Below, piece by piece: positions 1-11,602 of a stretch of DNA of 21,158 nucleotides. The DNA comes from a virus. Below the pieces are notes generated by a model that was not told where the DNA came from, ran no database searches, and was given only the letters and a program-made list of their open reading frames with translations. The translations under genes were made by a program, and so were the position numbers. The DNA lies in the IMG/VR virus record IMGVR_UViG_3300020473_001319, positions 1 to 21,158 of that record. The stretch is one strand, 5' to 3'. Positions within the stretch are counted from its first letter, which is position 1; each line of letters opens with the position of its first letter.

Positions 1-344
1 ATCATCCGTATTGTAATATAACAACAGTCTTCTTTTTCAATAATTTAGATGAGAATTTTTTGACGGATATAATAGCAAATAAAAATATAAAAAGAAATCA
101 CGGTGCGCCTGATTCAAAGCCAGGTAATACGGATGATGGTATATTAGAATTGGTTTATAATTCTGCAAATTATTTTGAACAAGGAACTTTTAGAATAGCA
201 GCAAAGGAAAAAATGTTTTTAGTATTTCCAGCACATTTGCTACATACTGTATATCCATTTATATCTGATGAGAACAGAGTAACTGTTTCTTTTAATTTCG
301 TAACTGAATCGGATATACAATTAGTTAATTATGGGAACAGATAA
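1..344 (+). CDS. 2OG-Fe(II) oxygenase, C-terminal part (5' end outside window)
   Basis: The frame is open from base 3 to the TAA at 342-344, so the gene enters from the left and only about 113 residues are visible. The visible part starts with His-Pro and a hydrophobic strand (VFFFNN). It ends with a core of the type FLVFPAHLLHTVYPF followed by ENRVTVSFNF. This matches the end of the putative 2OG-Fe(II) oxygenase family PF13759 (recalled, not searched), where the His of LLH would bind iron and the Arg of ENR would bind 2-oxoglutarate. Such enzymes hydroxylate or otherwise oxidise a substrate using O2 and 2-oxoglutarate; the substrate here is unknown. The stop overlaps the next ATG by one base (TAATG), which implies translational coupling. 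A TTG at 60 could be taken as a start, but the coding signal continues upstream of it. Confidence 0.75.
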   Translation, partial: HPYCNITTVFFFNNLDENFLTDIIANKNIKRNHGAPDSKPGNTDDGILELVYNSANYFEQGTFRIAAKEKMFLVFPAHLLHTVYPFISDENRVTVSFNFVTESDIQLVNYGNR

Positions 345-1837
345 TGAATGATTCTTTATATGTAAATGGCTATACTATAGTAGAAAACTTTTTTACAAAG
401 CAACAAGTTGATTTTTATATGAGTCAGGTAGTTGAGGAAATGAGTTTAAATCGATTACATTTAGCTGCTGATATAGAAAATGAAGAAAAGTTACATCCAG
501 CTACTTGGAATGTAAATTCAAATCCTATTTGGCAAAATACAATGTATAGTTTTTTGCCACAGATATCTAAAATCGTTGATGAAGAATTAGTTCCTATATA
601 TTCCTATCAGAGAATATATTTGAGAGGTGCTCAATTAGCAAATCATACGGATTGGCCTTGGTGTCAGATTTCATTATCAGTAAATTTAGGACAGTCACAT
701 CAATACCCTATGTATATAACTGATATGCAAAATAAAAATGATGTGGAAATAATACAAAAACCAGGGGATGCTATTTTTTATCTTGGACATAATACAACAC
801 ATTATAGAAATCAATTTGAGGGAGACTGGTATTCACAGTTATTTCTTCATTATGTAATTGCCAATGATGAACAAACAAAACATCATAGATTTGATCCTGA
901 AATTTTCAATTTCCAACTATCAGATAAAATGGAAAAAATCTTTTATCCTATAGAAACGGAAAAACTAAAGACTATGAAAATTTCATATGATATGAAAGAA
1001 CAAAATAAAGGATATGTGAAACCTTTAGATTCAATGGAATATAAGACAACAAATCGAATTCCTAGAATTGAGATAGATGATGTTACTCCTGATGCAAAAA
1101 TGAAAGGTGGTCAATATAAAACTAAAAAACTTGACCAATTTATGGATTCTGTACACCAAACAAGAAAAGCATTATCATCAGATTTTTGTAAAGAACTTAT
1201 AGATTTTTATGAAGATTATAATGGTAAAGGAAAAACATTTCACGGACTAACTCATAAGGGATTAGATAATAAATATAAGAATACGGGTGAACTTAATTTA
1301 TTAGATTTGCCTGAACTTAAACCTGGAGAAAAGGGAGAACATTTTATTTCTAAAATAGTAACCGCTTCAGACCATTGTATATTACAATACACTAAAAAGT
1401 ATGGATTATTAGAACATTATAATCCATCAGAATTGGGTGCTGGTGGAGCATATTATCCTGTATGGGAAATACATAAGTATGATAAAGGTGTTGGACACTA
1501 TGAGTCTTGGCATACTGAAGGATCACATCTTTACGAATACGGTAATAGAATGTTTGTTAGTATGTTTTATCTAAATGATGTAGAAGAGGGTGGAAGAACT
1601 GTATTTCCATTTGCGGGTGCTGGTATAAAATGTGAAGAAGGAAAACACTTAACATTTCCTTGTATGTGGCCTTATGTACATTACGCACAAACTCCAGAAT
1701 CGGATGATAAATACATACTCACTACTTGGCTTATGAAATTATGGCCTGATCATTATATGCAAACTTTTTCTAAAGTAGAGGGGCATGAAAAACAAAAAGA
1801 TGTTAGAAAAACAAAGTTTATTTTTGAGGGAAAATAG
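344..1837 (+). CDS. Tandem 2OG-Fe(II) oxygenase with two catalytic domains
   Basis: The 497-aa protein has two double-stranded beta-helix oxygenase domains. The N-terminal domain (about residues 5-175) has His101-Thr-Asp103 and a distal His153 followed by Arg155. The C-terminal domain (about 275-465) resembles prolyl 4-hydroxylases: His390-Thr-Glu392, then YLNDVEEGGRTVFP at 409-422, distal His446 and Lys456 in KYILTTW. Using HxE rather than HxD in the second domain is less common but can still bind iron. The stretch between them (about 180-270) is charged and probably a linker. A prolyl-hydroxylase-like role on a protein or peptide is an inference; the substrate cannot be read from sequence. 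The ATG at 344 overlaps the upstream stop, and the next gene starts 2 bases after this one ends, so it belongs to the same transcript. Confidence 0.8.
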   Translation: MNDSLYVNGYTIVENFFTKQQVDFYMSQVVEEMSLNRLHLAADIENEEKLHPATWNVNSNPIWQNTMYSFLPQISKIVDEELVPIYSYQRIYLRGAQLANHTDWPWCQISLSVNLGQSHQYPMYITDMQNKNDVEIIQKPGDAIFYLGHNTTHYRNQFEGDWYSQLFLHYVIANDEQTKHHRFDPEIFNFQLSDKMEKIFYPIETEKLKTMKISYDMKEQNKGYVKPLDSMEYKTTNRIPRIEIDDVTPDAKMKGGQYKTKKLDQFMDSVHQTRKALSSDFCKELIDFYEDYNGKGKTFHGLTHKGLDNKYKNTGELNLLDLPELKPGEKGEHFISKIVTASDHCILQYTKKYGLLEHYNPSELGAGGAYYPVWEIHKYDKGVGHYESWHTEGSHLYEYGNRMFVSMFYLNDVEEGGRTVFPFAGAGIKCEEGKHLTFPCMWPYVHYAQTPESDDKYILTTWLMKLWPDHYMQTFSKVEGHEKQKDVRKTKFIFEGK

Positions 1838-1839
1838 TT

Positions 1840-2850
1840 ATGTCAATGTTTGCTGAATCATTATCAAAATATGGTATAAATCATCCTTTGATCATACCTC
1901 ACGAAAATACTAATGGTACTGCTTTGGCAAATCCTAGTATATTGAATTACAATGAAAAACTTTATATAAATATAAGGATGTTAAACTACACTCTTTATCA
2001 TTCCATAGGTGCTACAGAATGGATGGGTGAGGGTGGTAAGTATCAATCAAGATGGGGTCCTTTAACATATGTTCATCCAGAAAATGATCATAGACTTATT
2101 ACGGATAATTATTTAGGTGCGTGGAAAGAGAATCCAACTTTTAAAAAAATACATATGTCATTAGACCTTGATCCGATTTGGGATTTTGTAGGATTAGAGG
2201 ATGCTAGATTAGTAAATTGGGACAATAAAATATATGTTACGGGAGTTCGAAGAGATACAACAGAAAATGGTCAAGGAAGAATGGAGTTATCTGAGATAGT
2301 AGATTTAGAAAATAATCCAAGAGAAGTTTCAAGAGTAAGAATAGAACACCCAACAAATCCTGATGCTTATTGTGAAAAGAATTGGATGCCAGTTAGAGAT
2401 TTACCATTTCACTATATTATGGATTCGAATCCTACTAGATTAGTCAAAGCAGATCCTAAAACTGGAGAATGTCAATTGATAACAGTAGGAGAAAAATTAG
2501 ATATTAGTGGCAATATGAGGGGTTCTTCTCAACTGATAACACATAATGGTGGATATTTTGCTGTACTACACGATACTAATTGGTGGAGATTTGAGGGTAG
2601 ATGTGATGAAAACAAAGATGCTATATATAGTCACAGATTAGTACATTGGGATAAAAATTTTGTTGTACAAAGAGTTTCTAAACCATTTAGTTTTATGAAT
2701 GGACAGATAGAGTTTTGTTGTGGTATGGACAGACTCGAAGATTCTTTTTATATAACATTTGGATTTGAAGATAACTCAGCACATTTACTTGAAGTGAAGT
2801 GTGATGTTTTGGATAAATGGTTTGATAATAATTTGGAGTATAGTAAGTGA
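1840..2850 (+). CDS. GH130-like five-bladed beta-propeller protein
   Basis: This 336-aa protein shows repeated W/Y-rich beta-blade patterns and motifs typical of glycoside hydrolase family 130 and related propellers. They are GLEDARLV at 118-125, EKNWMPV at 179-185, a GSSQLI strand at 228-233, and a closing segment at 290-319 (IEFCCGMD ... YITFGFEDN). GH130 enzymes are mannosyl phosphorylases or hydrolases; related phage copies often sit beside glycosyltransferases. Whether this copy is catalytic is not certain: the Asp121 region is kept, but the other phosphate-binding residues cannot be assigned by eye. Start ATG 1840 has a GAGGG run about 10 bases upstream. The last 4 bases (GTGA) are shared with the start of the next gene. 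Alternative: a non-enzymatic glycan-binding propeller. Confidence 0.65.
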   Translation: MSMFAESLSKYGINHPLIIPHENTNGTALANPSILNYNEKLYINIRMLNYTLYHSIGATEWMGEGGKYQSRWGPLTYVHPENDHRLITDNYLGAWKENPTFKKIHMSLDLDPIWDFVGLEDARLVNWDNKIYVTGVRRDTTENGQGRMELSEIVDLENNPREVSRVRIEHPTNPDAYCEKNWMPVRDLPFHYIMDSNPTRLVKADPKTGECQLITVGEKLDISGNMRGSSQLITHNGGYFAVLHDTNWWRFEGRCDENKDAIYSHRLVHWDKNFVVQRVSKPFSFMNGQIEFCCGMDRLEDSFYITFGFEDNSAHLLEVKCDVLDKWFDNNLEYSK

Positions 2851-5138
2851 ATCTAAAAATAAAATCATTACTGGAAGATTATGGTAAAGACACTACCAAT
2901 ATACGAATTCAATTAGATTTAGCAAGAGAGTATTATGACGAAAAACAATATGCTTCTGCTATGTCATATTTGAATAGAATAGCGGAGATGTCCGATGATA
3001 GTAATATTGTATATGAGAGTTTATGTTTAGCTTCACAATGTTTTTTCTTTCAAGGAAATAGAAATATACATACTAAAGTTTGTTTGTATCACGCAATTAG
3101 TGTTTTGCCAAATAGACCAGAGGCTTATTACTTATTATCCAAAACGATGGAAATTGATGAACCATTTCAATGTTATAGTTACTGTACAATTGGTATAAGT
3201 CATAAAGATAATGCTAGAAGAGTAACAAAATTACCATTTGAGTATGATTATTATAGATTATTATTTCAGAAAGCTGTAAATGGGTGGCATGCTCAAAAAA
3301 TAGAAGAATCGCGAGAAATATTATATGATTTACATATGAATCATACGATGAATCCATTTTATACAGAGCTAGTTGTTTCTAATCTGAATAATATAGGATG
3401 GCCTGAAAAAAAAGAAGAATTAGAAAAACCTATATTGGAAGAAATTGTTCCTGATCCTGATGACATACCAAATATCGAAAGTGAACAGGCTAATCCTAAG
3501 TGGAGTGTAACCGAATTTCCTACATTAGAAATTACAACTGTTATACCAAAAAAAGGATGCGTAGTTGATTGTGTTTTTTGTCCACAAGAAATACTAAAAA
3601 AATCATATAATGATGAGATGTGGTATATGTCTATGGCTGATTTTAAAAGAGCTATTGATAAAGTACCGACAGAGGTTAGGATAATATTTTCAGGTTTCAT
3701 AGAACCATTTATGAACAAACACTGTTCTGATATGATGATATATGCTCATGAAAGGGGACATCCTGTTGCAGTATTTACTACGGCAGTTGGTATGACAATA
3801 GATGATGTTGAAAAAATAAAACATATACCATATGATGATGGTCCTAATGGTGGTTTTACATTACATTTACCTGATGAAGAACATCTGGCAAAACATCCTG
3901 TTACTAAACGATATATAGAAGTTATAAAGGCTATAAAAGAAGCTAACCTAAATAGTTTTTATTTGATGTCAATGGGTAAAGTTGATGATAAAATATTGGA
4001 TTTGAATCTTTGGTCTGAAGATGAGATTCATATACCACAAATGTGGTCTAGAGCTGGAAATTTGAGGGGTGAGGCTATGGTAAAGCCTGAACTCAGAAGA
4101 GTAGCTGGAAGAGTATCAGACGCTGCTAAGTTCAATGAAGAGAATTATAAAGATGTAGAGTTGACTTGTGGGTGTGTAGAAGATTTATATCATAATATTT
4201 TACTACCCAACGGTGATATATCTTTATGTTGTATGGATTATGGTCTTGATCATATTACTGGTAATTTATATGAACAATCATTTGAAGATGCTATACCTGA
4301 AAACAATCAATGCTTTGATTTATGTAGAAAATGTGAAAATGCGGTGCCTGTAAACGATAAAAAACAACTTACATTAGGTGATAAATTTATTCAGTCTCAG
4401 AAAACAGGAGATGGCAAAGTTACTAGAAAAGATCTTGGTAATTTACAAGATATACTAGATAAATCGGAGAAAAATGAAAAAAAATGGGGTGGAGACATTT
4501 ATTCTGCTAAAAAAGAAAAAGGTCAGTCTATGTATAGACTTACACAACCGATAGTTCGTCCAAGTAATAACCCAACTATAGTGGTGGTTGATAATTTTTT
4601 AGATAATCCAGATGAAGTTAGGCAAATAGCACTAAATATACCTAACAGTGAATATGAAAAGCGTGGTTCGGTTGGACTTAGGTCTAAACCTTATCCATAT
4701 GGAGAGGTTTATAGACCAGTATTTGAAGAGTTGTTGGGTATAAAAACTGAAGATGCTGAATGGGGTGGAGATGGTGGTACGCACGGATGTTACCAATGGT
4801 CTCCAGCATCAACTGGGCAAGTAGTTCATTGTGATGCCACAGATTGGGCTGCTGTTATTTTTCTAACTCCTGATGCACCACCTAGAACAGGTACTTGGTT
4901 GATGAAACATAAAGATACTGGTAAAAAAATGAGGGATGAGGGTCTTGATGATGTATTCATAGGTAATGAAGCACAATGGGACACACATCCATTTGAAAAA
5001 ATAGATGACATTGGAAATGTATATAACAGATTAATTTTATGGAATGGAAGACATTTACATACGGCTGGTTCATATTTTGGTGAATCAATTGATAATTCAA
5101 GGCTATATCAAGTCTTCTTTTTCAATGAAAAGAAATAA
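2847..5138 (+). CDS. TPR-like / radical SAM / SPASM-like / 2OG oxygenase fusion protein
   Basis: This 763-aa protein starts at GTG 2847, with GGAG at 2834-2837, and overlaps the upstream stop by four bases. Residues 1-190 are alternating helices resembling TPR units (for example LAREYYDEKQYASAMSYL). Residues 220-425 form a radical SAM core with the cluster motif Cys238-x3-Cys242-x2-Cys245 (GCVVDCVFCPQ). Residues 441-496 hold a second cysteine set (441, 443, 461, 462, 489, 493, 496) around LLPNGDISLCCMDY, as in SPASM domains that carry an auxiliary Fe-S cluster. After a charged linker, residues 568-760 look like a DUF6445-type 2OG oxygenase: IVVVDNFLDNPDEVRQIAL, His661-Cys-Asp663, His736/His738 and Arg752. 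Radical SAM/SPASM enzymes often modify peptides or sugars. The joined oxygenase suggests two successive oxidative steps on one substrate, which is an inference. Confidence 0.8.
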   Translation: MNLKIKSLLEDYGKDTTNIRIQLDLAREYYDEKQYASAMSYLNRIAEMSDDSNIVYESLCLASQCFFFQGNRNIHTKVCLYHAISVLPNRPEAYYLLSKTMEIDEPFQCYSYCTIGISHKDNARRVTKLPFEYDYYRLLFQKAVNGWHAQKIEESREILYDLHMNHTMNPFYTELVVSNLNNIGWPEKKEELEKPILEEIVPDPDDIPNIESEQANPKWSVTEFPTLEITTVIPKKGCVVDCVFCPQEILKKSYNDEMWYMSMADFKRAIDKVPTEVRIIFSGFIEPFMNKHCSDMMIYAHERGHPVAVFTTAVGMTIDDVEKIKHIPYDDGPNGGFTLHLPDEEHLAKHPVTKRYIEVIKAIKEANLNSFYLMSMGKVDDKILDLNLWSEDEIHIPQMWSRAGNLRGEAMVKPELRRVAGRVSDAAKFNEENYKDVELTCGCVEDLYHNILLPNGDISLCCMDYGLDHITGNLYEQSFEDAIPENNQCFDLCRKCENAVPVNDKKQLTLGDKFIQSQKTGDGKVTRKDLGNLQDILDKSEKNEKKWGGDIYSAKKEKGQSMYRLTQPIVRPSNNPTIVVVDNFLDNPDEVRQIALNIPNSEYEKRGSVGLRSKPYPYGEVYRPVFEELLGIKTEDAEWGGDGGTHGCYQWSPASTGQVVHCDATDWAAVIFLTPDAPPRTGTWLMKHKDTGKKMRDEGLDDVFIGNEAQWDTHPFEKIDDIGNVYNRLILWNGRHLHTAGSYFGESIDNSRLYQVFFFNEKK

Positions 5139-5530: not shown

Positions 5531-7981
5531 ATGGCAGAGAGAATTGTCAGTCCAGGTGTATTTACTCGTGAAAAAGATTTATCCTTTTTGCCTGCTGGAG
5601 TTGCGGCAATTGGAGCTGCTATTGTTGGTCCTACATTAAAAGGTCCTTCATTTGTTCCTACACAAATAAATACTTTTCAAGAGTTCGAAAATACTTTTGG
5701 TGGATATACCAAAAACTATTATACACCTTACACCGTAAGAGAATATTTAAGGTCTGCAGGTTCAGTAACCGTAGTCAGAGTTGGATATTTAGGCGGATAT
5801 AAAGCTAATGGAGTTAATTTGGTGATGAGTCGTTCAGCTGGAGCAGCTAAACAGGTAGTTGCAACATTTTTACCAGCTGTAAATAACACAGGTGGTGCTG
5901 TTTCAGCATCGCGTGGTAATGACTTTCATGCTGGTAACATTGATATAAACCTAATAGGTTCAAATGCTACTGCTAGTCTTACTAATCTAAGTATAATGGA
6001 AACAGCTGCTAATTCAGCTGATTACTTACCAAAGAAAGTCGATACAGATGCTAATATTCAAACAATCGATGGTACTTCAGCTCCACTTTACACTTATAAG
6101 TTCTTTAGAACTGCTGTATCACAATCAATCAAAGCTGGTTCTCTAGCTTCTGCAGCTAGTATGAGTATTGAAGTTCATGCTTCATCTGAATTTGATTTTG
6201 AAGGAGCTACTCAAAGTGTAAATGCCAGTACATATGTAACCACATTCAATGGAAGTAGTGGTGCTATGGCTGGACGCACACCTATGATTTTAGACCAAAA
6301 CAGTAATGAATTATTCAGACTCTATATGAGATCGGATGGTACTAATACTAATGATTATTATGTAGTAATAAAAGATGTAAAACAAGCTGCTAGTACAAAT
6401 GCTGCTGAAAATTATGCTGAATTTTCTTTACAACTTTATGATGTAGAGGGTAATCCTGTTGGTAATGAAATGACTCAATTGAATTTCGATCCTGCTTCAC
6501 CAACACATTTTGCTAAAGCAATTGGTGATCAATTTCAAGAAGTAGATAACGATGGAAATATAACAGTGCACGGAGACTATCCAAATCGACATGCTTGGCT
6601 TAGAGTGGGTGATGCTAACTATGATAACCTAAAAGCATCTAAAAATGCTCAACCAATGGGATTTTCTAAAGTATATGAACCCATTATTGCTACTGCTCAA
6701 GTACCTACTGGTTCAATAAATAGGGTACAAGAAAAGAACACTAATGTAGGAGCATATAATCCTGATGTTGCTTATGGATTTCAGTTGAATCCAAATCATT
6801 TTTCTGAAATTGATATAAATGATGCTAGACAATATCTGGCACCGATTCCAAAGGGTGCTGATACTGGAGTAAATGCTCACTTTCTATTAACAAATATGAA
6901 AGGGTTCGGTACTGGTGCTGATCTAACAACACTACAGACTCAATATGGTGCTGAGTTTGCTGGTTCTGCTACCAGTTTGAATATATCATCTTCTGCTGTA
7001 CAGTTGAAATTTGCTGTACCAATGCAGTATGGATTTGATGGTATAGCTCCAAACGCTCTTTTGAATACTGGTAATGATATAACAGCTGCTAATGTGATGG
7101 GATTTGATTGTAGTACTTCTGCTAAGAGTGGTTCTATTGCTTGGAGAAGGGCTATTAACTCTGTAAGTAATCCAGATGAGATAGATATTAATATGCTAGT
7201 AACACCTGGTGTAAATCATAGTCTACATCCATCAGTTACCAATCATGCAATAGATAAAGTTGAAGCTAGAGCTGATGCTTTTTATGTGATGGATGGTTCT
7301 TCTTGGGGAGACTCTGTTGCTGCAGCAATTAGTAATATCAAAACATTAGATACTAACTATGTTGGTACATATTATCCTTGGGTAAAGATAGATGATCCAG
7401 ATACTGGTGAGGGTGTGTGGGTGCCACCATCAGTAGTAATTCCTGGTGTTATTGCTTTTACAGATAATGTGGCGCACGAATGGTTTGCTCCTGCTGGATT
7501 AAATCGTGGTGGATTAGCTAGTGTAAGAATGGCTAAGAAAAAACTAACTCATACAGATAGAGATAGATTGTATGAGGGTCGTGTGAATCCGATTGCTACA
7601 TTTCCTGGTCAAGGTGTTGTGGTGTTTGGACAAAAAACATTACAAGCTAAACCATCTGCTCTTGATAGAATCAATGTAAGACGACTACTTATCAGATTGA
7701 AGAAATTTATTGCTTCTTCAAGTAGATTCTTAGTGTTCGAACAAAATGATAGTGCTACAAGAACTAGGTTCTTAAATATAGTGAATCCGTTCTTAGAATC
7801 AGTACAATCCAATAGTGGATTGTCAGCATTCAGAGTTGTAATGGATGAGTCTAACAACACACCTGATGTCATAGACAGAAATCAGTTAGTTGGACAGATA
7901 TTCATACAACCAACAAGAACTGCTGAGTTCATTGTATTGGACTTCTCAGTATTACCTACTGGGGCAGCATTTCCTGAATAA
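5531..7981 (+). CDS. Tail sheath protein (T4 gp18-like)
   Basis: This 816-aa protein forms the contractile outer tube of the tail. The N-terminus is characteristic: SPGVFTREKDLS, a small-residue segment AAIGAAIVGPTLKGP, then the FGGYTKNYYTPYTVREYL region with a VTVVRVG strand by residue 84. The C-terminus carries the conserved sheath core: NPIATFPGQGVVVFGQKTL, then INVRRLLIRLKKFI, and a final strand ending near ADF-type FIVLDFSVLPTG. The middle (about 90-600) is Ala/Ser/Thr/Asn-rich and variable, as expected for surface domains. T4 gp18 has 659 residues, so this one is clearly longer. ATG 5531 has an AAGGAG site at ideal spacing. A strong terminator follows directly, so the gene probably ends its transcript. 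Confidence 0.95.
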   Translation: MAERIVSPGVFTREKDLSFLPAGVAAIGAAIVGPTLKGPSFVPTQINTFQEFENTFGGYTKNYYTPYTVREYLRSAGSVTVVRVGYLGGYKANGVNLVMSRSAGAAKQVVATFLPAVNNTGGAVSASRGNDFHAGNIDINLIGSNATASLTNLSIMETAANSADYLPKKVDTDANIQTIDGTSAPLYTYKFFRTAVSQSIKAGSLASAASMSIEVHASSEFDFEGATQSVNASTYVTTFNGSSGAMAGRTPMILDQNSNELFRLYMRSDGTNTNDYYVVIKDVKQAASTNAAENYAEFSLQLYDVEGNPVGNEMTQLNFDPASPTHFAKAIGDQFQEVDNDGNITVHGDYPNRHAWLRVGDANYDNLKASKNAQPMGFSKVYEPIIATAQVPTGSINRVQEKNTNVGAYNPDVAYGFQLNPNHFSEIDINDARQYLAPIPKGADTGVNAHFLLTNMKGFGTGADLTTLQTQYGAEFAGSATSLNISSSAVQLKFAVPMQYGFDGIAPNALLNTGNDITAANVMGFDCSTSAKSGSIAWRRAINSVSNPDEIDINMLVTPGVNHSLHPSVTNHAIDKVEARADAFYVMDGSSWGDSVAAAISNIKTLDTNYVGTYYPWVKIDDPDTGEGVWVPPSVVIPGVIAFTDNVAHEWFAPAGLNRGGLASVRMAKKKLTHTDRDRLYEGRVNPIATFPGQGVVVFGQKTLQAKPSALDRINVRRLLIRLKKFIASSSRFLVFEQNDSATRTRFLNIVNPFLESVQSNSGLSAFRVVMDESNNTPDVIDRNQLVGQIFIQPTRTAEFIVLDFSVLPTGAAFPE

Positions 7982-8048: not shown

Positions 8049-8102
8049 AAAAACTATGAAAGAAAAGAGAAAATGATTTGAACGAAAATTCGATTTAGAT
8101 GA

Positions 8103-8110
8103 TATTTATA
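8103..8110 (+). promoter_or_regulatory. Candidate promoter element before the tube gene (TATTTATA)
   Basis: After the terminator, the tube gene needs its own promoter. The 111 bases between terminator and tube ATG hold GATATTTATATAC at 8101-8113, about 34-43 bases upstream of the start. The same ATATTTAT core recurs before the genes at 9866 and 20633. No matching -35 box is seen. The assignment rests on position and recurrence only. Confidence 0.35.
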
Positions 8111-8143
8111 TACGAAGAATTAAAAATTTATAGGAGAACTGAA

Positions 8144-8632
8144 ATGCCAGACTTAATAGATCCTTCAGAGATAATGTTCACTCCGTTTGAACCTAAACTA
8201 AAGAACAGGTTCATTATGTACATTGAAGGCGTTCCTGCTTACATTATAAAAAGTGGTAATAGACCACAAATAAATTTTGAAACCATTACTTTAGATCATA
8301 TCAATGTTCAAAGATATGTGAAAGGTAAAGGTGCGTGGCAAACATTGGAAATCACATTATATGATCCAATTGTACCATCTGGCGCACAAGCAGTAATGGA
8401 ATGGGTAAGATTATCACATGAATCTGTTACGGGTAGAGATGGATATTCAGATTTTTATAAAAAAGATGTTACTTTCAATATGTTAGGTCCTGTAGGAGAT
8501 AAAGTAGAAGAGTGGACATTGAAAGGTGCTTACATACAAGCAGCTAACTTTGGTAGTATCGATTGGTCTGTAAATGAACCAGCTGATATCACACTAACAC
8601 TACAATACGATTACGCTATCCTACAATTCTAA
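8144..8632 (+). CDS. Tail tube protein (T4 gp19-like)
   Basis: This is a 162-aa protein, against 163 in T4 gp19. It polymerises into the inner tube through which DNA passes. Recognisable features are the opening EIMFTPFEPKLKNRFIMYIEGVPAYIIK, the strand pair ITLDHINVQRYVKGKGAWQTLEITLYDPI, a VMEWVRLSHE helix and a closing DITLTLQYDYAIL strand. An in-frame ATG at 8099 would add 15 residues, but ATG 8144 has AGGAG at 8132-8136 with 7-base spacing and gives the family length, so it is preferred. The sheath precedes it across a terminator, and a small membrane protein follows after 9 bases with its own AAGGAG. Confidence 0.93.
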   Translation: MPDLIDPSEIMFTPFEPKLKNRFIMYIEGVPAYIIKSGNRPQINFETITLDHINVQRYVKGKGAWQTLEITLYDPIVPSGAQAVMEWVRLSHESVTGRDGYSDFYKKDVTFNMLGPVGDKVEEWTLKGAYIQAANFGSIDWSVNEPADITLTLQYDYAILQF

Positions 8633-8641
8633 GGAGTTTAT

Positions 8642-8851
8642 ATGAGTTTTTTCAGAGAAATGCTTTCGAGTGATGCGAAGATTTCAAGTAAAAGATTTGT
8701 CGGTTTTATGGCATTCTTTATGTTGATATGTAGTTGGGGTGCTGACACCTTTTCCGCATTCGAAGTAAAAGACAAAATTTTAGAATGTTTTATGTACATT
8801 TCAGTAGTTGGACTTGGTGTCACAGCAGCTGAAAAGTTCGGTAAAAAATAG
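8642..8851 (+). CDS. Small two-helix membrane protein, possible holin
   Basis: This 69-aa protein has two hydrophobic segments, about residues 18-38 (RFVGFMAFFMLICSWGA...) and 47-63 (ILECFMYISVVGLGVTAAEK), with a short charged turn between them and a Lys-rich end. The SSKRF stretch just before the first helix is recalled from small phage membrane proteins annotated as holin-like. A holin would form lesions in the inner membrane at lysis, but no endolysin is in the window, so a role in anchoring tail assembly or as an antiholin cannot be excluded. ATG 8642 is preceded by AAGGAG in the tube gene's 3' end. The reverse-strand frame over it is a shadow. Confidence 0.7.
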   Translation: MSFFREMLSSDAKISSKRFVGFMAFFMLICSWGADTFSAFEVKDKILECFMYISVVGLGVTAAEKFGKK

Positions 8852-8884: not shown

Positions 8885-9628
8885 ATGGCTGAAGTCAAAT
8901 TTCCCACAGAAGTGGTAGATTTGCCGTCAAGAGGATTATTATATCCAAAAGATAATCCAATGTCTAGCGGTAAAATTGAGATAAGATATATGACAGCAAA
9001 GGATGAAGATATTCTAACTTCACCCAATCTAATAAAACAAGGTATTGTTGTTGATAAATTATTAGAAAGCATTGTTGTAGATAAAAGTATAAATTTAAAT
9101 GAAATGTTATTAGGAGACAAAAATGCTCTTCTTATAGCGGCTAGAATATTAGCATATGGAAAGGATTATAAAGTCAAAGTTGGTGATGAAGATATAGTTA
9201 TTGATTTGACTAAACTAAAAGATAAATTTTTAGATGAGAAATTAGTTGTGAATGGTAATTTATTTGAGTATGAGTTACCTATGACTAAAGTGAAAGTACA
9301 ATTCAAATTCATAACTTCAGCTGAAGAAAATTCAGTACAAAAAGAAGTAGAGGGATTGATGAAAATAAGTGGTGGTGTATCTTTTACTTTGACTACCAGA
9401 ATGAAACATCAGATAGTGTCAGTAGGTGGGAATGCAGATAGAGCTTATATAAATGATTTTGTAGACAATCAACTTTTATCACGTGACGCTATTTCACTTA
9501 GAGGTCACATTGAAGACATTTCTCCTGATGTCGATATGAGCTGGGAATACACAGACAGTACAGGAGAAAGGAGGGAAACAACGGTCCCGATGACCGTTCA
9601 GTTTCTTTGGCCTACCGCTAGAATATAA
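8885..9628 (+). CDS. T4 gp26-like baseplate hub / tail assembly protein
   Basis: This 247-aa protein matches the T4_baseplate family (PF12322, gp26-like) as recalled: VVDLPSRGLLYPKDNPMSSGKIEIRYMTAKDEDIL at the N-terminus, a LLESIV helix, and at the C-terminus a D-LSRDAISLRGHI region ending with PMTVQFLWP. ATG 8885 has AGGAG about 7 bases upstream. In phage tails such proteins help assemble the hub or chaperone the tape measure. The last 35 bases overlap an open frame in +1 that continues 172 bases past the stop, so part of the product may be extended by frameshifting. T4 gp26 has about 208 residues, so this copy is slightly longer. Confidence 0.8.
   Translation: MAEVKFPTEVVDLPSRGLLYPKDNPMSSGKIEIRYMTAKDEDILTSPNLIKQGIVVDKLLESIVVDKSINLNEMLLGDKNALLIAARILAYGKDYKVKVGDEDIVIDLTKLKDKFLDEKLVVNGNLFEYELPMTKVKVQFKFITSAEENSVQKEVEGLMKISGGVSFTLTTRMKHQIVSVGGNADRAYINDFVDNQLLSRDAISLRGHIEDISPDVDMSWEYTDSTGERRETTVPMTVQFLWPTARI
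9580..9598 (+). promoter_or_regulatory. Hairpin upstream of a possible +1 frameshift site
   Basis: A perfect 7-bp inverted repeat, AACGGTC (9580-9586) with GACCGTT (9592-9598), has a 5-base loop. It lies 3 bases before TTT-C (9602-9605) and after a GGAGGG run (9570-9575). The local GC content is higher than in its surroundings. Together these could stimulate ribosome slippage, but function is inferred only. Confidence 0.4.
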
Positions 9629-9800
9629 GAACGAAATTCACGAACAAATATTCCAAATAGCATTCAACTCACAAGGAATGTTTTCTTTTACAGAAGTATA
9701 CAATATGCCAATTCATATGCGTACTTTCTATCTAAAAAGATTAGTAAAACATTACAAAGAACAACAAGAAGAATTAGAAAAAGCTAGAAAAGGTTTCTAA
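9594..9800 (+). CDS. +1-frame ORF, probable tail assembly chaperone extension
   Basis: The frame is open from the TGA at 9591-9593 to the TAA at 9798-9800 (68 codons), in +1 relative to the gp26-like gene, which it overlaps by 35 bases. The product contains LPLEYKNEIHEQIFQIAF, then FSFTEVYNMPIHMRTFYLKRLV, then a charged helix EQQEELEKARKGF. The VYNMPIHMRTFYLK type of motif is recalled from a small gene after gp26 in marine T4-like phages. There is no ATG until 9678 and that one has no usable ribosome site (AAGGA abuts it), yet coding character begins before it. The simplest reading is that it is made as a +1 extension of the gp26-like protein near TTT-CTT-TGG-C (9602-9611), giving about 304 residues. 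Confidence 0.6.
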   Translation, partial: PFSFFGLPLEYKNEIHEQIFQIAFNSQGMFSFTEVYNMPIHMRTFYLKRLVKHYKEQQEELEKARKGF

Positions 9801-9865: not shown

Positions 9866-10051
9866 ATGAAAAAATTGACGACAGAGAATATGATAATGAG
9901 ATTCTACGAGAAGTGGAAAAACAAGAAATTGAATAAAGCTGCTCAACAAACTTTGAAAAAGAATCCACAACTACAAAAAGATCTAGAAAAGTTAGATAGT
10001 ACATTGAAAGATATTGCTAACGACTTAAAAAAGGGATACGCCCCTTACTAA
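9866..10051 (+). CDS. Small basic coiled-coil protein, unknown function
   Basis: This is a 61-aa Lys-rich protein with an amphipathic helical stretch from about residue 10 to 55 (RFYEKWKNKKLNKAAQQTLKKNPQLQKDLEKL...). ATG 9866 has CGGAG at 9855-9859 with 6-base spacing. An upstream in-frame TTG at 9830 lacks a ribosome site, so the shorter form is preferred. It lies between the putative chaperone pair and the tape-measure-like gene, which begins 6 bases after its stop without a clear ribosome site of its own. Translation of the next gene is therefore probably coupled to this one. Its function is not recognised; a tape-measure-associated role is a guess from position. Confidence 0.65.
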   Translation: MKKLTTENMIMRFYEKWKNKKLNKAAQQTLKKNPQLQKDLEKLDSTLKDIANDLKKGYAPY

Positions 10052-10057
10052 TAAATT

Positions 10058-11602
10058 ATGGCAAATAGAACAAGAGATGATATAGCCTTATTGGAAGAAC
10101 AGATAGCTAAGTTAGAAGCACTAGCTATTGGTCAGAAAAATTATGGATTAGAAGTCAAAAAGGGTATGGACCGTATAAAGGAGTACAATAAGACTTTAGA
10201 AAAAATCAAAGCTGCAGAAAAAGAGATTATAGGGGTAAAAAAATCTCAACGAGACTTAACATCACAGATGAATGATTTCGGAAAAACCTTTGGTGATCAA
10301 GCAGAAAAAACTTTAGGTATTGAGGGTATGCGAGAGGTTATGAAAGAAGCAGCTGCTTCAAATGACAAAGAGGCTATCAGACAATCAAAAGAATTAGGAA
10401 AAATAATGGAAGGTGTCCTGAAAGGGGAGATGGATCATTTAGATGTACAAGAAGCTGCTCTTGGTTTATCTGGCAAATTCAGGGACGCTGCTGAGGATAT
10501 AGGAAAAACAGTTGAAAACTCACCGAATATAGGGAATGTATTCAAAGTAAAACAAGAACTCTTTGGTGCTATAGATGGAATGATGGGTGGAATAATGACC
10601 ACAATTCGAGGTATAATGACCGCTACAGGTCCTATTGGACTAATAGTTGCTGCTGCTATTGCTTTAGTAAATTATCTTATAGGAGTTGCAAAACAAGCTA
10701 AAGAAATGAGAGATGAGTTGGGTATTTCCGCTATCGAAGCTGGTAGACTCTCAATTAATATGGAAGCAGCTGGTATGGCTGCTCTTATGGCTGGTGGATC
10801 TATGGAGAAAGGTAGAGAAGCTGTAAAGGGTATGGCTGAAGCATTTGGTGATTTGAGTGTTATCTCATTAAGTACCTCAGCTGCAGTTGGTGATTTAGTT
10901 GCTCACACTGGATTAGCAGGAAATGAAGCTGGAGCATTACTAAAAATTATGACTGATGTAAATGGACAATCTATTGAGACAAATGTAAACACATTAAAGT
11001 CACTTGATAATTTGGCTGAATCTTCAAAAGTTGCACCTGCTAGAGTTATGTCACAGATTGCTAAAGATACAGATTTATTTGCCAGAGCTGGAGCAAAAGG
11101 TGCTGATTCATTATTTAGAGCTGCTATTGAAGCAGAGAAGATAGGTTTAGAACTTAGTAAATTAGATAGTTTAGCAGATAGTATGCTAGATGTAAAAAAG
11201 GTTATGGAATCAAGTGCTCAGTTGAGTCAAGTACTTGGAAGAAATGTTGATTTAACAGGTATGATACAAGCTGCTAATATGAATGATATGGGTGCTTTAC
11301 AACAACAAATCAGACAACAATTTACAGCAGCTGATCTTGAAAGAAATCGTACAGTACAAAATATGCTAACAGATGCTCTTCCTGGACTAACTCTTTCTGA
11401 TTTACGAGCAATAACAACTGGTGGTAGTATAGAGGCTGGTCGTAATGTAAAACCACCACCTGCTAAAGATCAATTAGAAGCATCTAATAAAACTAATGAA
11501 AAAATGGATGATTTGGTAAAAGAAACAAAGGCTCTCAGAGAAGCAAATACCGAAGAAAATGAAAAAGTTATTAGAAAACTTGGACAAATTGGGAGTGGCT
11601 AA
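10058..11602 (+). CDS. Tape-measure-like tail protein (T4 gp29 position)
   Basis: This 514-aa, largely helical protein has a coiled-coil N-terminus (residues 5-70, LLEEQIAKLEALA ... EKIKAAEKEI). A strongly hydrophobic segment at about 178-203 (MTATGPIGLIVAAAIALVNY) follows, then a long Ala/Met/Gly-rich helical region (EAAGMAALMAGGSMEKG) and a charged tail. A coiled-coil, membrane-like and helical layout in this position, after tube and chaperone genes, is typical of tape measure proteins, which set tail length and enter the host envelope. T4 gp29 has 590 residues, so a somewhat shorter tail is expected. The stop overlaps the next start by one base. An alternative is another internal tail or hub protein. 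Confidence 0.65.
   Translation: MANRTRDDIALLEEQIAKLEALAIGQKNYGLEVKKGMDRIKEYNKTLEKIKAAEKEIIGVKKSQRDLTSQMNDFGKTFGDQAEKTLGIEGMREVMKEAAASNDKEAIRQSKELGKIMEGVLKGEMDHLDVQEAALGLSGKFRDAAEDIGKTVENSPNIGNVFKVKQELFGAIDGMMGGIMTTIRGIMTATGPIGLIVAAAIALVNYLIGVAKQAKEMRDELGISAIEAGRLSINMEAAGMAALMAGGSMEKGREAVKGMAEAFGDLSVISLSTSAAVGDLVAHTGLAGNEAGALLKIMTDVNGQSIETNVNTLKSLDNLAESSKVAPARVMSQIAKDTDLFARAGAKGADSLFRAAIEAEKIGLELSKLDSLADSMLDVKKVMESSAQLSQVLGRNVDLTGMIQAANMNDMGALQQQIRQQFTAADLERNRTVQNMLTDALPGLTLSDLRAITTGGSIEAGRNVKPPPAKDQLEASNKTNEKMDDLVKETKALREANTEENEKVIRKLGQIGSG

Follow-up and report, generated by a model that had tools for sequence, protein, structure and literature searches.

Tail assembly chaperones of the lambda gpG/gpGT type are made in a short and a long form from one gene that precedes the tape measure gene, with the shift near the end of the short frame. 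Both products are made in a fixed ratio and neither occurs in the virion. These lambda-type frameshifts are mostly -1 events on slippery heptamers. In phage T4, gp26 is the short protein, and gp51 consists of the gp26 fold plus a C-terminal extension according to profile comparison. The two T4 proteins are encoded by separate genes, 26 and 51, and a 2016 review named T4 as the exception to chaperone frameshifting. The tail chaperones of T4-like phages were identified by Vladimirov, Gautam and Davidson in 2022 (cited in PMC12846349 and PMC10885494). As far as that study is represented in these sources, it argues for another mechanism in T4-like phages, and PMC10885494 reports from it that in some T4-like phages the short form and a fused long form have a gene each, with no frameshift. 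PolyT -1 sites were already known in T4-like phages (PMC12846349). Given this work, novelty cannot be claimed for the T4 pair, nor perhaps for the -1 branch described below.

Several described systems shift by +1 or move the mRNA in other ways. RF2 (prfB) and YopN-TyeA-like UUU_Ynn sites slip +1 where a pyrimidine follows UUU or CUU, and RF2 also has a Shine-Dalgarno (SD)-like sequence upstream. UUU_Ynn is especially +1-prone in bacteria, and among RF2 shift sites CUU_U works most efficiently (PMC5009743). In known cases of SD stimulation, a +1 shift needs a spacing of 3 nt and a -1 shift needs 9-14 nt. The tail chaperone of the haloarchaeal myovirus HSTV-2 very likely shifts +1, in an archaeal host (PMC5009743). 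In the T4 gene 60 bypass, a hairpin just 5' of the take-off codon is proposed to pull the mRNA backwards while folding, and the ribosome hops 50 bases to a matched landing codon.

The window, which is the whole stretch of 21,158 nt analysed here, contains a tail assembly chaperone gene of the T4 gp26 type that very probably undergoes programmed +1 ribosomal frameshifting, as judged from comparative sequence analysis. The initial annotation had proposed such a shift giving a chaperone fusion, and the relatives support it. The features are as follows.

8885-9628, plus strand: short tail assembly chaperone (TAC-N), T4 gp26-like, 247 aa, frame 0 (phrog_150, E 1.4e-8)
9568-9574, plus strand: AAGGAGG, full anti-SD match, 27 nt 5' of TTT, or 8 nt with the hairpin looped out
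9580-9598, plus strand: hairpin AACGGTC-ccgat-GACCGTT, 7 bp, with covariation, ending 3 nt before the shift site
9594-9797, plus strand: whole open stretch of the +1 frame, 68 codons, stop at 9798-9800
9602-9613, plus strand: putative shift site UUU CUU UGG CCU, codon 1 being TTT in 81/81 non-redundant sequences
9606-9800, plus strand: +1-frame extension giving the predicted long form (TAC-NC), 64 codons, in +1 in 105/105 distinct relatives
10058-11602, plus strand: tape-measure-like gene downstream of the chaperone, 514 aa (BLASTP)

The gene order is sheath (5531-7981), tube (8099-8632, phrog_4542), chaperone and tape-measure-like gene, and the chaperone gene thus sits between the tube and tape measure genes, as in the G/GT type. 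The tape-measure-like protein matched the same-position protein of Microcystis phage Mel-JY01 (BLASTP, E 1e-12) and the annotated tape measure of Flavobacterium phage immuto (E 9e-5). The placement of a T4 gp26-like gene before the tape measure gene, claimed earlier, was thereby borne out. Two small ORFs (8642-8851 and 9866-10051; 69 and 61 aa) lie among the tube, chaperone and tape measure genes, and no convincing family match was found for either. The frame-0 chaperone ends in F-L-W-P-T-A-R-I at the TAA of 9626-9628. It overlaps the +1 frame by 35 bases (9594-9628), and the first ATG of the +1 frame is at 9678; every coordinate given earlier for the overlap, the 68-codon frame and this ATG was correct. 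A +1-frame TGA (9591-9593) lies between the SD match and the open +1 stretch. The extension runs from TTT GGC CTA (FGLPLEYK...) to the TAA at 9798-9800, and the predicted fused product has 304 aa.

By sequence comparison, the frame-0 protein is a member of the T4 gp26/gp51 family (phrog_150, PF12322). Both T4 proteins belong to phrog_150, gp26 over 14-235 and gp51 over 13-280 of 282. One relative (L008) matched PF12322 above the cutoff (E 1.8e-11), and the window frame-0 protein alone gave no PF12322 match. Profile comparison linked gp51 to gp26 (E 2e-8), the cyanophage -1 fusion to gp51 (E 5e-15), the extension of that fusion to gp51 (E 2e-8), and the window-type extension to the cyanophage extension (E 2e-6). 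This suggests that the window extension corresponds to the C-terminus of T4 gp51, with the link running via the cyanophages and phrog_150. When window-type fusions were compared by hhalign with a narrow T4 gp51 set and with T4 gp26, the result was not significant. AlphaFold2 models were made of the frame-0 part and of one T4-type gp51. The frame-0 model (pLDDT 89.9) matched SP-15 and T4-like hub chaperones in BFVD, and its best four matches of 642 PDB chains were 3fgx, 3klu (YqbN), 2ob9 (HK97 chaperone) and 5ir0, with low Z scores of 5.7 to 3.9. We take 3fgx, 3klu and 5ir0 to be chaperone relatives. Foldseek gave no match of the T4-type gp51 model to the PDB at E 0.001, and a PDB sequence search with T4 gp26 and gp51 returned nothing relevant. 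The low structural Z to chaperones and the non-significant direct comparison of the window family with gp51 weigh against the frameshift reading. No frame-shifted extension was seen in T4 gene 26 itself, which runs up directly against gene 25.

Searches of IMG/VR and phage records yielded 105 distinct loci of the window's family from many samples, including the isolate genomes of Mel-JY01 and immuto. In all 105, the extension lies in +1 and, at the same position, stays open beyond the stop of frame 0; no conserved -1 extension was found in these loci. The overlap with frame 0 ranges from 23 to 116 nt, and the +1 frame closes 56-100 codons past the frame-0 stop in every locus not cut by a contig end. 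The conserved +1 protein begins FGLPLEYK, right at the shift site. No ATG occurs at or before the site in 93/105 relatives, 11 lack an ATG throughout the +1 frame, and 4 lack GTG and TTG there as well. In the remainder of the family the first ATG varies widely in position. A +1-frame stop lies at most 45 nt upstream of the site in 91/105, and between the SD and the site in 42/67. An overlapping second frame that is conserved, keeps a fixed frame relation and lacks a start of its own is what characterizes the G/GT type. The -1 slippery heptamer, usual but not essential in that type, is absent from the window gene; unlike the lambda-type genes, the window family would shift +1 at UUU-Y with its signals upstream.

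The second frame is under selection as a protein. Among close relatives, the nonsynonymous/synonymous ratio was approximately 0.10 in +1 codons 9-24, which lie past the frame-0 stop and before the window's first ATG, and 0.05 in the codons after that ATG. The +1 protein is thus under purifying selection even 5' of the first ATG, in agreement with the earlier remark that the sequence there looks protein-like.

The motif of the shift site across relatives is TTT YTT T.. CCN. TTT YTT is present in 104/105, the exception being L089 with TTT TTA. Codon 1 ends in T in 81/81 non-redundant sequences, compared with TTT at 82% elsewhere in the gene; the naive probability of this bias, 1e-7, is too small because the sequences share ancestry. 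Codon 2 is CTT in the window and in 14 other non-redundant relatives. The A-site codon at the window site is not a stop and is not obviously slow, a point against the frameshift reading. No signal of structure was detected downstream of the window site (z -0.42).

Upstream of the site, an anti-SD match of at least 6 nt was found within 18-45 nt in 49/81 non-redundant sequences, against 6.8% of gene-background positions. These matches mostly end 22-28 nt before the shift site. The GGAGGG reported earlier at 9570-9575 is present and is part of the enriched match AAGGAGG. Codon usage changes in the same region: Glu is GAG in 86/127 cases within the SD region vs 270/1433 elsewhere, and Arg is AGG in 15/19 vs 71/658. 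This enrichment indicates selection on the RNA beyond the protein alone.

The perfect 7-bp hairpin, also pointed out in the initial annotation, is present, and comparative evidence shows it to be structurally conserved across the window's clade, where it lies between the SD match and the shift site. In the 22 clade members aligned in this register, 5/7 pairs change on both sides and 91.6% of hairpin cells pair. Double-change cells numbered 21, vs 6.5 in shuffles, and 0/500 shuffles reached this number; the set leaves out a few members of the clade whose hairpin sits in a shifted register, so the count leans towards this structure. In the hairpin test, 37/81 sequences exceeded 95% of control positions in the same gene. 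Permutation of the arms gave z 5.5 for exactly the window's register. The 26-nt hairpin segment folded with z = -3.1, whereas a 45-nt segment with more flank showed no folding signal (z = -0.2), so the evidence for the hairpin comes from comparison. Looping it out would shorten the spacing from SD to site to 8 nt in the window and to 3-10 nt in most of the clade.

Which codon slips is a question within the frameshift reading. A slip of tRNA-Phe from UUU (9602-9604) to UUC (9603-9605) is favoured, since the third base of codon 1 is invariant, UUU-Y occurs in all, and UUU_Ynn is +1-prone. The same frameshift might instead occur at codon 2, with tRNA-Leu moving from CUU to UUU and UGG in the A site, as at CUU UGA in RF2. 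We consider this possible but rather unlikely, and it remains a live rival within the window's subclade: the CTT-bearing relatives have the CUU_U preferred in RF2 (PMC5009743), and Streptococcus phage GXN1 (TTC TTT CGT) could re-pair only at its second Phe codon. However, a slip at codon 2 would free the third base of codon 1, which does not vary, and L089 and LR756508 (TTT CTA) could re-pair at codon 1 only. UUU plus a pyrimidine is common to L089, LR756508 and GXN1. For the earlier claim of a tRNA-Phe slip on TTT-C/CTT-TGG-C, the sequence TTT CTT TGG C stands at 9602-9611 with its invariant codon 1, and the slip at UUU is favoured over CUU-U. The predicted tryptic junction of the window fusion would be ETTVPMTVQFFGLPLEYK after a slip at UUU and ETTVPMTVQFLGLPLEYK after a slip at CUU, that is, ...VQFFGLPLEYK or ...VQFLGLPLEYK.

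Explanations outside frameshifting fare far worse. A reading in which the second frame forms a gene of its own, with initiation at ATG 9678 or re-initiation past the frame-0 stop, would fit the presence of that ATG and the small ORFs annotated there in the deposited immuto and SP-15 genomes. It is nevertheless highly improbable, because purifying selection acts upstream of the ATG, first-ATG positions scatter or are lacking altogether, and +1-frame stops close off most approaches to the site, often between SD and site. Transcriptional slippage at the T run followed by ordinary translation deserves slightly less credence still. Many relatives do contain an unbroken run of seven T (TTT TTT TGG), but the window and its sister loci have the broken run TTTCTTT with the same frame relation, and the SD and hairpin point to translation. 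Nothing was found in favour of an indel from sequencing or assembly or of gene decay, and the probability of this reading is negligible: the same arrangement recurs in the 105 distinct loci, isolates included, which contradicts a sequencing error. Taken together, the fixed +1 arrangement and the selection before the ATG rule out an indel error and leave a separate start very improbable.

We therefore return to the programmed +1 frameshift and how it might work. Most ribosomes would produce the 247-aa short form, and a fraction would slip +1 base at UUU CUU UGG to produce the 304-aa long form, which would set the ratio of the two chaperones. Peptidyl-tRNA-Phe would re-pair from UUU to UUC, and the hairpin, together with the SD-like sequence that it brings to about 8 nt from the site, would probably raise the efficiency of the shift. 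By analogy with lambda gpG/gpGT, both forms probably serve to coat the tape measure and to bring in tube subunits. The linear SD distance of 22-28 nt, vs the 3 nt known for +1 stimulation, counts against the model. So does a freshwater/Flavobacterium clade in which the site and SD are kept and the hairpin is absent. In L106, L110, L115, L118, L122 and L129 of this hairpin-free clade, GAGGAGG is kept at 25-26 nt from TTT, and inspection by eye of several of its loci found no +1-frame start codon downstream of the SD.

Compared with RF2, the window site has no A-site stop, its SD is 27 nt away instead of 3 nt, and a hairpin lies in between; it does not form the RF2-type cassette of SD at 3 nt, CUU and A-site stop. 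Since the hairpin stops 3 nt short of the slip codon, the ribosome would still enclose its 3' arm. It is quite conceivable, if somewhat short of probable, that the upstream hairpin drives the one-base shift, completion of the helix pulling the mRNA by one base with or without the distant SD being reached. This would be a small version of the gene 60 motor, with the 3' arm inside the ribosome while UUU is in the P site; unlike gene 60, the shift is of one base and has no matched landing codon. To our knowledge, no other +1 frameshift of a single base has a hairpin stimulator upstream.

Elsewhere in the family, the direction differs. S-PM2-type cyanophages have a homologous short form and extension with the same junction, but the extension is in -1 at U UUU UUC in 57/57 distinct loci. 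An anti-SD match of at least 5 nt is present in 14/27 of them, then 8-11 nt upstream, and a downstream hairpin, often strong, in 16/27. The annotated 57-aa cyanophage gp51 is this -1 extension. In Synechococcus phage S-PM2 (L072:4472-5364) and loci L153-L232, gp26/gp51 is apparently one gene with a -1 frameshift. Other genomes were judged by eye for their frame relation. The giant phages 121Q (L066), Paride (L067), Atu_ph07 (L068), RaK2 (L069) and LR756511 (L053) have a homologous-looking -1 extension at U UUU UUC. Distant +1 relatives are Bacillus SP-15 (L065, TTT TTT C), Listeria LIS04 (L050, TTT TTT A), Streptococcus GXN1 (L051, TTC TTT C) and Rhodothermus RM378 (L052, TTT TTT TGG). The same gene family thus appears, from these sequences, to shift +1 in some branches and -1 in others at the same junction.

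Most gp26/gp51 branches looked at appear to shift frame in one direction or the other, and T4 has two genes in the family to which the window gene belongs, where the window type has one gene and a frameshift. The +1, -1 and two-gene branches form a natural series for the evolution of frameshift direction. Literature searches found no described +1 shift in the gp26/gp51 family, subscription papers being beyond their reach. Three features look new for a T4-related chaperone gene: the forward (+1) direction, the site UUU-Y, and the signal formed by the SD with the upstream hairpin. UUU-Y with the upstream hairpin is a compact signal that is directly testable by reporter. Ahead of the tail genes, window positions 1-5138 hold large ORFs resembling iron/2-oxoglutarate oxygenases and a TPR/radical-SAM-like protein. 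The chaperone gene itself would be wrongly annotated in many phage records. The 36-aa hypothetical protein of immuto (L048:3839-3949) and the 39-aa hypothetical protein of SP-15 (L065:3755-3874) are apparently fragments of the frameshifted extension.
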